From: Bacteroidia bacterium
GTDB lineage: Bacteria; Bacteroidota; Bacteroidia; J057
Direction of reading: 5' to 3'
NCBI GenBank assembly: GCA_033391075.1
Contig: JAWPMV010000001.1
Span: forward strand, 7,626,001-7,690,000
Length of the DNA: 64,000 bases
This document shows positions 16,373-57,738 of the stretch, piece by piece (the first letter of the stretch is position 1; each line of letters begins with the position of its first letter). Position numbers and translations under genes: made by a program. The notes under the pieces are model-generated. The model was given only the letters and a program-made list of their open reading frames with translations. It did no database searches and was not told the origin of the DNA.

Positions 16373-17167
16373 ATGAAGAAACCGGTCTACTATAAGAACT
16401 GGTGGATATGGGTCGGAGTTCCCGTTATCAGTGTATTGGCAACCTTTGTTGGAACCCCTCATACCATTTTTGATCCCATTTTGTATGTGAAAATGGGCTT
16501 GAATCTGGCGATCGTTAGTTTCGTCTGGTTATTGGCATATGCCTTTACCCTTTTCATGGATAAACGAATGCCCTGGGAGTCCACCTCGCATCTCAAAAGA
16601 TGGGTCTTTCAACTAGGGATATTTATTCCTCTGGGAACCAGCATAGATGCTTTTGGATTGATCTTACGAAATCAAATCATCGAATGGCCCTTTTCCTGGC
16701 ATCTCTTTTTTTATACCGATTTCCCCATCCAAATTTTTTTCACCAGCCTGATCTTTTACCTCTACCAGCAGGCCTATCTGAAATACCGGGAAGAAAAGGC
16801 AAAGCAGGAGGAAGTCGCAGAAAAATCCTGGAATAGCTTCCGGATAAAAAGAGGGAAAAAGACCTATGTGATTCCGGTGGAGGAGATTGCCTATTTCTAC
16901 CGAAAAGATCAGTTCAATTATCTCTGTAAAAAGTCGGGAGAAGCCTATATGGTAGACGAATCTCTGAGTGCTATAGAGCAAAAGCTGGATGCCTCCTCTT
17001 TTTTTCGTATCAATCGACAATTGTTGGCGCACCGAACTTCTATTTCCTCTTTCAAAGTCCTTCCCAATCGGCAAACAGAACTTGCTGTAGAACCAGAAAT
17101 GGACCCCCTTCCTCTCCTCAATAAAAACCGCAGCGCCCAATTCAAGCAGTGGGTGAAATTGGATTAG
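16373..17167 (+). CDS. Membrane-anchored LytTR family transcriptional regulator
   Basis: A 264-residue protein. The first 150 residues hold four TM helices (around WIWVGVPVISVLATFVG, LNLAIVSFVWLLAYAFTLF, WVFQLGIFIPLG, FPIQIFFTSLIFYLYQQ). Residues about 165-262 are a LytTR DNA-binding domain (TYVIPVEEIAYFYRKDQFNY, SLSAIEQKLDASSFFRINRQ, LAHRTSI). There is no receiver domain, so the signal is probably sensed in or at the membrane. LytTR proteins bind pairs of direct repeats about two helical turns apart; exactly such repeats lie just downstream at 17175-17208. Confidence 0.92.
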   Translation: MKKPVYYKNWWIWVGVPVISVLATFVGTPHTIFDPILYVKMGLNLAIVSFVWLLAYAFTLFMDKRMPWESTSHLKRWVFQLGIFIPLGTSIDAFGLILRNQIIEWPFSWHLFFYTDFPIQIFFTSLIFYLYQQAYLKYREEKAKQEEVAEKSWNSFRIKRGKKTYVIPVEEIAYFYRKDQFNYLCKKSGEAYMVDESLSAIEQKLDASSFFRINRQLLAHRTSISSFKVLPNRQTELAVEPEMDPLPLLNKNRSAQFKQWVKLD

Positions 17168-17174
17168 AGATATT

Positions 17175-17208
17175 TGTCCGCTTCATGTATATGAATGTCC
17201 GCTTCATG
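17175..17208 (+). promoter_or_regulatory. Candidate LytTR operator: two direct repeats
   Basis: The 13-mer TGTCCGCTTCATG occurs at 17175-17187 and again at 17196-17208, an exact repeat with a period of 21 bp, i.e. two turns of the helix on one face. It lies after the LytTR gene and 68 bp before the outer-membrane barrel gene. The spacing matches the known binding mode of LytTR domains such as AgrA; the sequence itself is not a known consensus. Confidence 0.5.
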
Positions 17209-17275
17209 CTAAAAACGCCTTTTCAGAAGAAACTGTAGTGCTTTTGTCAGGGTATTTAAGATCAAAATTAGTAGC

Positions 17276-18067
17276 ATGAACCTTAGAAAGAATTTTATTT
17301 ATCTCATTATCCCCTTATTATTATCAAGTCCATTGACACTCCGTGCACAGGAAGAAACTTCAAAAAAACTCTTCCTCCGATTGGGAAGTCTGGACCTCCA
17401 TCTACTTGACGAACAAGCCAGCCCGATCCTCTATCAGGGAAATGGCATTCAAGCCCAAATAGGCTTTGAAAAACAAAAATCCCTTAATAGCTGGGCCTAC
17501 AGTTTAAGCATAGGTCAAATGAAACTACAGCCCGATGATCCTGAAGTGCGCTTTGGCGAGGGGGAAGCAGGAACTTCCGCTATGGCCGTTCAGCTTGCTT
17601 ATCTGAGAAGAATTCCCGGGAGTGGGAGCTTTGCCTGGAGCTATGGGGCGAGACTTCAAAATGAACTTTTGCTGGATTTTGAAGCCATTGGTGATTTTCC
17701 CTGGATCTTTGCGCAAGGAGGAATTTTTGCCCAGACTCAAATGGAGTATGCTGCAGGCGAAAAGCATCAAATTTCTGGCGGTATAGCACTGCCTGTATTT
17801 AGCTGGATCATTGATATGCCTTATAGTCAGGTGCCTCGAACCGAAGGAAAGGCTCCCGGAGTAGGATCAGCAATAACAGAGGGCTTCCGCATACCTTCCT
17901 GGGCGACATATCAGAGAGTTGATCTTTCCTTGGGATACCAATTTGATTTTGCTGAAAAATGGAGTTTAGAAGCTCTGTATCAATGGGCCTGGTTTCACGA
18001 CAAAGAACCGCGCAACCTTTGGGCCTATCAGGGCAGGCTGGGACTCGGAATCAGTCATCGTTGGTAA
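17276..18067 (+). CDS. Putative outer-membrane beta-barrel protein
   Basis: A 263-residue protein with signal peptide ending LTLRAQ. The mature part shows repeated alternating polar/hydrophobic strands of 9-11 residues with aromatic girdles (WAYSLSIGQMKL, FAWSYGARLQNELLLDF, YQRVDLSLGYQFDF, WSLEALYQWAWF, GRLGLGISHRW) and ends in an aromatic residue, as outer-membrane barrels do. No specific family recognised. It is the first gene after the LytTR regulator and its candidate operator, so it is a likely target of that regulator. Confidence 0.8.
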   Translation: MNLRKNFIYLIIPLLLSSPLTLRAQEETSKKLFLRLGSLDLHLLDEQASPILYQGNGIQAQIGFEKQKSLNSWAYSLSIGQMKLQPDDPEVRFGEGEAGTSAMAVQLAYLRRIPGSGSFAWSYGARLQNELLLDFEAIGDFPWIFAQGGIFAQTQMEYAAGEKHQISGGIALPVFSWIIDMPYSQVPRTEGKAPGVGSAITEGFRIPSWATYQRVDLSLGYQFDFAEKWSLEALYQWAWFHDKEPRNLWAYQGRLGLGISHRW

Positions 18068-18172: not shown

Positions 18173-19210
18173 ATGAAATCCTATATCTATATAAGCATAC
18201 TTATCCTTCCCATTTTACTCTTTGGTGCATGCAAAGAAGTTCTGATCCCCACTCCTGAAGCCAATACCATACTCAATAATTATGATGTCTTTGGTCAGGA
18301 TTTTCAGGAAAAATATGGCCTGTTCAAAGTCAAGAATTTTGATTGGCAAGAAGAATTGAAAATTCATCGGGCAGATTTGGAAGCCAATCCTACAGAAGCA
18401 GGTTTATACCAAACCCTAACGGATCTCATTGATGTGCTGAATGATTCTCATGTGGCACTCGAACTGCCTGATCGATCTTTTCCCTTTTATGATGGAGGAA
18501 TCTATGGCCGTTTGGAAAGAGCGGGCTTTCAGGATACTGATCTGAATCTGGTAAGAAGTAAATATGTCAATGTGATAGACAGTATTCCGTATTCGCTATT
18601 CTATGGAAGCATTGAGGGCAATATCGGTTACCTTTATCTTTCCGAGATTAGCGACGATCCCAGCTTTTATGAAGACCTCATGCCAAGCATTCTGGAAAAA
18701 TTGAAAGATACCAAAGGCATGATCATTGACATACGTGATAACAATGGAGGCGAAGATGAGGGAGGACGGACACTCGCCAGTTTCTTTGCCAGTAAAGAAG
18801 CTCCCTATATGATCTCCCGATACAAAACAGGTATAGGGCCTGATGATTTTGAAGAGGATCGGCTCTGGACCCTGAGTCCATATGAGGGAGAGCGCTATGA
18901 AAAACCCCTGGCTCTTTTGACCAATCGATATAGTGTAAGTGCTGCAGAGACCTTTAGCTTCGCCATGAAATCCCAAGAACAATTGGTGCATGTCGGAGAT
19001 ACAACAACGGGTGCTTTCTCCGATGCCGTTACCCGCCAACTTCCCAATGGATGGCTATACAGTATATCTGTGGGCGACTATCGAGATGCAGAGAACAAAA
19101 GCTTTGAAAGCATAGGTCTTGCTCCGGATGTGCTCATCAAAAATACAGCTGCTGATCTGGCAGCGGGTGAAGACAAAATGCTGGAAGCTGCTATCCAGGC
19201 TTTACAATAA
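18173..19210 (+). CDS. S41 family peptidase, lipoprotein
   Basis: A 345-residue protein with lipobox LFGAC (Cys 20). It has a helical N-terminal region (QDFQEKYGLFKVKNFDW, a pattern typical of Bacteroidota S41/tricorn-core lipoproteins) and then the S41 catalytic fold: GNIGYLYLSEI, GMIIDIRDNNGGEDEGG and the nucleophile segment LLTNRYSVSAAETF, with GDTTTGAFSD further on. C-terminal processing peptidase-like enzymes of this type cut exported proteins. The usual PDZ domain is not evident. No clear operon partner; the TonB receptor downstream is on the other strand. Confidence 0.88.
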   Translation: MKSYIYISILILPILLFGACKEVLIPTPEANTILNNYDVFGQDFQEKYGLFKVKNFDWQEELKIHRADLEANPTEAGLYQTLTDLIDVLNDSHVALELPDRSFPFYDGGIYGRLERAGFQDTDLNLVRSKYVNVIDSIPYSLFYGSIEGNIGYLYLSEISDDPSFYEDLMPSILEKLKDTKGMIIDIRDNNGGEDEGGRTLASFFASKEAPYMISRYKTGIGPDDFEEDRLWTLSPYEGERYEKPLALLTNRYSVSAAETFSFAMKSQEQLVHVGDTTTGAFSDAVTRQLPNGWLYSISVGDYRDAENKSFESIGLAPDVLIKNTAADLAAGEDKMLEAAIQALQ

Positions 19211-55009: not shown

Positions 55010-55507
55010 TTAAGCAACTACTTTATGCTTTCTATATCCACTCTTTCTCAAATTAGCATAAATTTCCCGCAACAAATTTTCTGTCCAGTTCTCAAGATCC
55101 AGAGTGAATATCTGTCCATCATCCACGAATATGTTTATTCGCTGTTTTCGTGCATCTTCCCAATAATCTTCAAAGGAAATTCTCGATTCAGATCGAGTAA
55201 GTTTTAGCTTTTCAAGCTTGAAATTTGCCGTTCTAAAGGAAATAGAAAGTTCATTCTCATCAATCTCTAAACTTCTTATGGGTTTGCTGAACAATGAATC
55301 AAGCAACTTTTTCAAGTTGGAACCCCAGGCAAAAAGAGCTAGCAGAGCAAAAAGAAAACCTAAAAGAGGGCGGTTTTCTACTTCCATGATCTTCAAGCCT
55401 TCCCTCAAACTAAAGAAGAGAAACAAAGCAGTGATTGAAAAAACGGCAAACCATATGTAGGGCTCGTATTTATGGTTTCGATCAGCACGATAAGTAAGCG
55501 GATTCAT
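55010..55507 (-). CDS. 2-TM protein with C-terminal PH-like domain
   Basis: A 165-residue protein with two TM helices (YIWFAVFSITALFLFFSL and LLGFLFALLALFAWGSNL) and a C-terminal part LEIDENELSISFRTANFKLE followed by FVDDGQIFTLDLENWTENLL. This corresponds position by position to LEIRERSASLKYFHKNFQLG and FVHPDGSKFQLDNDLRLW in the gene upstream, so the two are paralogues. The start lies 2 bp after the upstream stop. Role unknown. Confidence 0.73.
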   Translation of the reverse strand: MNPLTYRADRNHKYEPYIWFAVFSITALFLFFSLREGLKIMEVENRPLLGFLFALLALFAWGSNLKKLLDSLFSKPIRSLEIDENELSISFRTANFKLEKLKLTRSESRISFEDYWEDARKQRINIFVDDGQIFTLDLENWTENLLREIYANLRKSGYRKHKVVA

Positions 55508-57680: not shown

Positions 57681-57738
57681 AGTAGGGGCAGCTCATGAGC
57701 TGCCCCTACTCTCATGATCTCATGAGCTGCCCCCTACA
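57681..57738. repeat. 30-bp palindrome plus an added right half
   Basis: 57681-57710 is an exact palindrome with half site AGTAGGGGCAGCTCA. It is followed by CTCATGATC and a second copy of the right half, CATGAGCTGCCCC, with one extra C. The outline TAGGGGCAG..CTGCCCCTA is that of the palindromes at 1609 and 7160. It lies between convergent genes (head-GIN and S41) and may end both transcripts. Confidence 0.85.

Follow-up and report, generated by a model that had tools for sequence, protein, structure and literature searches.

Candidate Direct-Repeat Operator between a Membrane-Anchored LytTR Regulator Gene and a Putative Outer-Membrane Barrel Gene, and Its Recurrence in Related Loci of Bacteroidota

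Judging from excerpts of the papers cited here, membrane-bound LytTR regulators (CoxC, HigX, and those of the Bacteroides LRS-like operons) and the direct-repeat geometry of LytTR operators are already known. Canonical LytTR operators are pairs of 9-bp repeats 10 to 13 bp apart, typically separated by about 10 bp from the -35/-33 box downstream, and most LytTR regulators activate from such upstream operators (excerpts of PMC11347149). The LRS-like operons of Bacteroides encode membrane-spanning LytTR regulators, such as Btheta7330_RS19915 of B. thetaiotaomicron (Zou et al. 2018, PMC6193735, in excerpt). Transmembrane transcription regulators are, moreover, enriched in Bacteroidota/Bacteroidia (PMC10269533, in excerpt). 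The targets of membrane-anchored LytTR regulators in Bacteroidota are little described in the literature that we found. Here, we compare with these systems a locus in a window of 64,000 nucleotides (the whole stretch of DNA that was analyzed) from a Bacteroidia bacterium, in which a LytTR gene, an exact direct repeat, and a barrel-like gene follow one another.

The regulator gene (16373 to 17167, + strand) encodes a protein of 264 amino acids. LytTR (PF04397; 45.9 bits against a cut-off of 22.6) is the sole Pfam family above cut-off in this protein, and Pfam detected neither a receiver nor a kinase family at E <= 0.1, which agrees with the first-pass annotation and sets the protein apart from two-component response regulators, with their receiver domain. 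Its hydropathy profile contains three segments. An AlphaFold model built with an alignment of seven relatives (A3) predicts four helices, at residues 11-27, 35-65, 73-103, and 109-151 (block pLDDT mostly 51-68), followed by a C-terminal LytTR domain at residues 162-247 (mostly 79-89). When the model was searched with Foldseek, the LytTR fold matched 3d6w, the AgrA LytTR structures 4g4k, 4xqn, 4xqj, and 3bs1 (with and without DNA), and ComE (4cbv), the 11 best matches having E values between 6e-8 and 1e-3; a PDB sequence search with the profile of alignment A2 returned 3d6w alone. The regulator is thus predicted to be a four-helix protein that is probably located in the membrane. A DNA-binding domain and predicted helices in one chain, with no receiver or kinase, are what characterize transmembrane transcription regulators, and sequence and model place the protein provisionally in this group. 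A periplasmic sensor domain would seem to have no room among these helices, and the signal may therefore reside within the membrane itself.

Seven bases beyond the end of the LytTR stop codon (17167) and 67 bases ahead of the ATG at 17276, two identical 13-base copies of TGTCCGCTTCATG are present on the + strand at 17175-17187 and 17196-17208 (motif cores 17175-17185 and 17196-17206), with a period of 21 and an 8-base spacer, TATATGAA; both coordinates and identity are as first annotated. At lags 14-26, this pair is the sole exact run of at least 10 bases in the whole 64 kb, and at lags 14-30 there are two others, with lags of 27 and 29. These are a 15-bp exact direct repeat, CTCATGAGCTGCCCC, at 57692 and a 10-bp run at 55502, respectively. 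The pair agrees with the LytTR operator rule of approximately 9-bp direct repeats 10 to 13 bp apart (PMC11347149, in excerpt) when read as TCCGCTTCA-12 bp-TCCGCTTCA. The full pair occurs once in the 9,489,248-base genome, its 20-base core still occurs only once when 3 mismatches are permitted, and the single 13-mer with at most 1 mismatch is found at 10 sites, compared to 8 for the reversed control, and is thus not enriched. This indicates one private site rather than a regulon word. A genome-wide regulon of the TGTCCGCTTCATG word is not supported, given the uniqueness of the pair together with the control-level count of the 13-mer.

The locus resembles the LRS-like operons in that their LytTR proteins also have several transmembrane segments, and in that their repeats (TCCGGTATTCA-11 bp-ACCGGAAATCA), which precede a promoter with TATCTTTG at its end, have a similar direct-repeat layout (excerpts of PMC6193735). 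According to the same excerpts, however, the LRS-like repeats lie in the intergenic region of the operon itself and are presumed to be autoregulatory, whereas the repeats described here are located between the regulator gene and the barrel-like gene that follows it; the LRS-like operons also encode a separate NfeD/DUF2154 membrane protein, whereas the co-directional neighbors of the present regulator encode a putative barrel and an S41-like protein. The helices in the window are those of the regulator itself, with no separate membrane inhibitor encoded in the operon, and in the 400 bp upstream of the regulator gene the best repeat at lags 18-25 matches at only 8 of 11 positions (lag 22), so that no repeat is seen at its own promoter. 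By these two features, the locus is not an LRS.

CoxC of Afipia carboxidovorans, an MHYT-LytTR protein, is likewise a membrane-bound one-component regulator, acting on its cox cluster by way of direct repeats about two turns (18-21 bp) apart, but it has a seven-helix MHYT sensor and three repeats overlapping the -35 region, and it acts as a repressor (excerpts of PMC11347149). HigX of Caulobacter crescentus similarly combines four helices and no apparent periplasmic domain with a LytTR domain and a link to the cell envelope; in contrast to the private direct repeat of the window, the motif derived from its ChIP data is an inverted repeat, an imperfect one, and its binding peaks are many (excerpts of PMC13384398). 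YpdB also has direct repeats (GGCATTTCAT twice; PMC4847170, in excerpt) but is a response regulator with a partner kinase. As to a fixed cassette in which a barrel-like gene follows a membrane-anchored LytTR (TM-LytTR) gene whose stop codon adjoins the operator, with a lineage-specific spacing of 21 or 22, we found no description in the literature searched, outside of which lie most subscription journals. The DNA-binding domain of ToxR is a winged helix. ToxR-type transmembrane transcription regulators likewise unite a membrane tether and a DNA-binding domain in one protein, and the excerpts of PMC10269533 mention no barrel cassette for them.

We consider it highly probable from the sequence that 17175-17208 is the operator of the adjacent four-helix TM-LytTR protein, in a one-component circuit that acts in cis on the next gene. 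We infer that the LytTR domain binds DNA at this site: two LytTR domains would occupy the half-sites TCCGCTTCA, 12 bp, TCCGCTTCA, which are two turns apart and thus face the same side of the DNA, and the bound protein would act on the barrel promoter and, through it, probably on the following S41-like gene as well. Sensor, operator, and target would then lie side by side, with a signal that presumably comes from the envelope. The first-pass annotation had suggested a one-component sensor with its target in cis, and the recurrence of the repeat, its position, and the gene pair in related loci lends support to this suggestion.

Related loci were collected with searches of increasing breadth. The window LytTR protein found 3 other genomes among 119 (own genome included) at 1e-15, through its C-terminal part only, and 21 of 395 class genomes (own genome included) at 1e-14, mostly over the LytTR part. 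Three of the class matches (L182, L183, and L187) are membrane-anchored LytTR genes followed by an exported barrel-like gene. The window protein alone had no match in the named genome collection; an alignment of these three proteins and the window protein (A1) identified 36 loci there, including those of Echinicola arenosa, Fibrisoma limi, Fibrisoma montanum, a Phaeodactylibacter MAG, and a Cyclobacteriaceae MAG. In the family of G229, a wider profile had matches at 1e-32 in 81 of 344 genomes, and 91 of its 105 places were taken in, the 14 omitted being partial or among the weaker. TM-LytTR rows were required to have three hydropathy segments, with one row per C-terminus, and these filters removed 13 of the 90 loci L264-L353 despite a strong profile match (L264, L265, L271, L276, L297, L298, L300, L307, L308, L310, L329, L332, and L334). 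The retained set consisted of 93 TM-LytTR genes, 78 from the family of G229, 8 from the 36 named loci, 6 from the class searches, and that of the window; an NRQ motif is found in 75 of the 93 rows. A co-directional open reading frame of at least 100 amino acids follows at a gap of 30-350 in 59 of the 93, which gave 51 nonredundant gaps, and does not in the other 34. Many TM-LytTR genes of L336-L350 and similar branches have no downstream co-directional gene, and the operators of such branches may lie upstream of the gene instead.

When repeats matching at 9 or more of 11 positions were counted in the 51 gaps with no motif assumed, lags 21 and 22 gave 10 each and every other lag from 10 to 39 gave 0-2. 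Repeats at lag 21 or 22 were thus found in 20 of 51 gaps, compared to a mean of 1.43 and a maximum of 6 in 200 dinucleotide shuffles. A weaker excess upstream of the related LytTR genes (11 of 87 stretches at 9/11 or better versus 3.73 expected) raises the possibility that some relatives also autoregulate. The fitted motif (consensus GCTACACTTCA, with a strong TTC core), which was trained at lags 21/22 on the same 51 gaps that it scores, reaches at least 12 bits in 36 of them. At the remaining lags between 12 and 35, this score is reached in 0-6 gaps (6 at lag 20), on the reverse strand at lags 21 and 22 in none, and in the gaps of receiver-type LytTR genes in 3 and 2 of 96 at lags 21 and 22, respectively. 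Receiver-type LytTR genes of the relatives also display no clear lag excess (8 of 79 at lag 21, 9 at lag 19, and 8 at lag 12). In two relatives (G002 and G010), simple repeats distort the lag statistics at 14 and 21; heptamer-like intergenic repeats of the TTTCGGG/GAACCCT type were seen there in L092, L143, L153, L157, L170, and L171.

Single-linkage clustering of the 59 next-gene proteins produced one family of 37 (types A/B, approximately 185-226 amino acids), one of 6 (window type), and 16 others, so that at 43 of 59 loci the regulator gene is followed by a member of these two barrel-like families, a share that is not an unbiased survey because the A2 seeds were picked after barrels had already been noticed beside several of them. 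Sites of at least 12 bits precede 25 of 30 A/B barrels, 5 of 6 window-type barrels, and 6 of 15 other genes; the 15 gaps below this score include that of L330, with a window-type barrel, and those of five A/B loci, one of them Fibrisoma L206. The operator starts between -4 and +7 from the end of the stop codon in 30 of the 36 loci, overlaps or abuts the stop codon in 16, and ends 65-74 bp ahead of the next ATG in 26, while at L294 it lies 303 bp from the ATG. The core of the window site, TGTCCGCTTCA, recurs exactly in L210 of Echinicola arenosa. With a motif derived from all loci but the window, 17175 ranks first among sites at lags 21/22 on both strands of the 64 kb, with 17.5 bits and the next at 11.8; once lags 15-30 are admitted, however, a pair arising by chance at another place scores 17.4 (lag 24), so that this test by itself is only modest. 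The check on related genomes named in the first-pass annotation thus did not go against its reading: lag 21/22 repeats recur in the same place after related TM-LytTR genes, including that of L318.

On the tree, which is a quick one with long branches, the LytTR protein of L318 is the sister of the window protein (SH-aLRT 98, 36% identity), and the order of regulator, operator, barrel-like gene, and S41-like gene is kept. The L318 operator, also of lag 21, has kept 16 of 22 half-site bases, compared to 30 of 82 in the spacer and the rest of the gap in an ungapped comparison; in the spacer by itself, 3 of 10 are kept. Over 35 rows, the spacing changes between 21 and 22 twice on the tree, in contrast to a mean of 10.2 and a minimum of 6 changes in 300 label shuffles. 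The spacing of 21 or 22 follows the descent of the regulators.

The -7 promoter element of Bacteroidota is TAnnTTTG. By inspection, a candidate -7 element, TGCTTTTG, is located at 17239-17246 on the + strand, and an alternative candidate, TATTTAAG, at 17253-17260 (+), a poor match, stands at offset 47, the place of TA...TTG in the relatives; the operator core ends 32 and 46 bases, respectively, before them. TA...TTG starts 45-47 bp past the operator in 15 of the 36 loci (17 when reading past two called starts) and was found elsewhere in the 60 bp past the operator once; the window does not have it at that fixed distance. The B. theta rows of Zou et al. imply 34 bases from operator to -7 element, and in the related loci TA...TTG is about one helical turn farther off than in LRS-like operons (PMC6193735, in excerpt).

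The position of the operator upstream of the candidate promoters leads us to favor activation over repression. The adjacent LytTR protein could instead repress the barrel promoter until a signal arrives, a variant that overlaps with our main reading and has a precedent in a membrane-bound LytTR protein, since CoxC represses at PcoxB (PMC11347149, in excerpt). The operator of CoxC overlaps the -35 region, however, whereas here there are 32 or 46 bases between the core and the candidate -7 elements, and in many related loci the operator is 45-47 bp before TA...TTG; we regard repression as rather unlikely.

A different question is which LytTR protein the operator serves. Our search detected 61 LytTR matches in the genome of the window, 12 of which have at least 3 hydropathy segments and a start that by eye does not look like a receiver, and a protein other than the adjacent TM-LytTR could be the one that binds. 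Among repeats of at least 11/13 in 81.5 kb of intergenic DNA around the LytTR genes, lag 21 is the highest with 15, followed by lag 16 with 8. Control intergenic stretches from this genome, 54.6 kb in all, gave 2 and 6, respectively, and contained no lag-21 repeat of at least 12/13. Several receiver-type LytTR genes adjoin such repeats. The first TM-LytTR set (13 gaps, 10 of them from this genome) gave a weak signal, with 2 each at lags 20, 21, and 22. The words of the other lag-21 sites near LytTR genes nevertheless differ from that of the window, which is unique in the genome, and in other genomes, TM-LytTR genes of this group are again followed by a site at the corresponding position, L318 included. 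These observations make service to another LytTR protein improbable and argue for the adjacent TM-LytTR protein as the partner of the operator.

The repeat might also be an RNA element, in the 3' end of the LytTR mRNA or in the leader of the barrel mRNA, and inverted TTCAT/ATGAA matches between the copies, seen by eye, would fit such a role. The recurrence of the 21/22 direct-repeat periodicity across loci, the better conservation of half-sites than of spacer in L318, and the location of the candidate promoters downstream of the repeat render this very improbable. Chance or a recent local duplication, for which the lack of enrichment of the single 13-mer might speak, is the least credible explanation, given that position and spacing recur in related loci, the L318 half-sites are partly kept, and the core recurs in L210.

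The presumed target of the operator is the gene at 17276-18067 (+), which encodes a putative outer-membrane beta-barrel protein of 263 amino acids with a signal peptide-like start and homologs after TM-LytTR genes. Pfam yielded no match for this protein and nothing above cut-off for three target-type proteins of other loci. BLASTP of the window protein against its five cluster members (L294, L318, L324, L330, and L339) gave E values of 2e-19 to 9e-10, and in alignment A4, from which L318 was omitted because parts of its barrel read N, all 7 rows have a signal-like start and an aromatic last residue. The first-pass annotation had placed the site between a LytTR gene and an outer-membrane barrel gene; the position is confirmed, and the term barrel is to be taken as a putative label drawn from sequence character and the alignment with relatives, as the model of the single sequence has a pLDDT of 32, too low for a fold.

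Behind the barrel-like gene lies its recurrent partner at 18173-19210 (+), which encodes an S41-family (Peptidase_S41) lipoprotein-like protein of 345 amino acids (PF03572, 88.7 bits). By tblastn, an S41-like gene follows the window-type barrel gene in 4 of the 5 other TM-LytTR loci (L318, L294, L330, and L339), with 51% identity over 150 amino acids in L318, and none was found behind the barrel of L324. By eye, S41-like genes are also seen behind the barrel in L088, L089, and L090. Three barrel/S41-like pairs for which the stretch covered includes no TM-LytTR gene have no operator within 200 bp upstream, the start in L090 being uncertain. L090 (G000 C1:5043302) is a second, partial barrel match with an S41-like gene in the genome of the window, and the stretch covered there contains no LytTR gene.

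We tentatively propose, with somewhat less than even confidence, that these loci represent an envelope cassette that is self-contained and widespread in Bacteroidota. It would comprise a LytTR sensor with four helices, a private operator (21 or 22 bp) where the sensor gene ends, and an outer-membrane barrel dedicated to this sensor, joined in one branch by an S41-like lipoprotein. Regulator, word, and spacing would be inherited together, and feedback of the barrel/lipoprotein pair on the membrane sensor might constitute an envelope surveillance loop. Uncharacterized barrel-like and S41-like envelope proteins would thereby be linked to a dedicated sensor. Because the operator often stands at a fixed distance from the regulator gene, the sequence alone indicates both target and binding site, and the approximately three dozen predicted regulator-operator pairs, with their varied words, open the LytTR recognition code and the 21- versus 22-bp spacing to direct testing.

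Other repeats were observed near LytTR genes of the same genome (G000). An identical 34-base lag-21 repeat (TGTTCTGAATGGT twice) is present at L022 1269 and 4814 (C1, near 1231768 and 1235313), near two LytTR genes, one copy lying between convergent called genes. In gaps after the TM-LytTR genes of L056 and L021, imperfect words of the CCACT/GTCA type are found approximately 21 bp apart, by eye. A word AGCTGTG occurs three times with a 21-bp period at L045 3945-4001 (C4), immediately next to where a receiver-type LytTR gene ends. Lag-21 words of the TACCATTCAGAACA and TACCAACTACTCA types are each found at two places near receiver-type LytTR genes. Repeats of the TACCAACTACTCA type are located at L023 182 and 4422 (C1, near 5137681 and 5141921), one before a gene of approximately 1068 amino acids and one just after the next gene, a receiver-type LytTR gene, and this pair of sites looks like a private two-site circuit.
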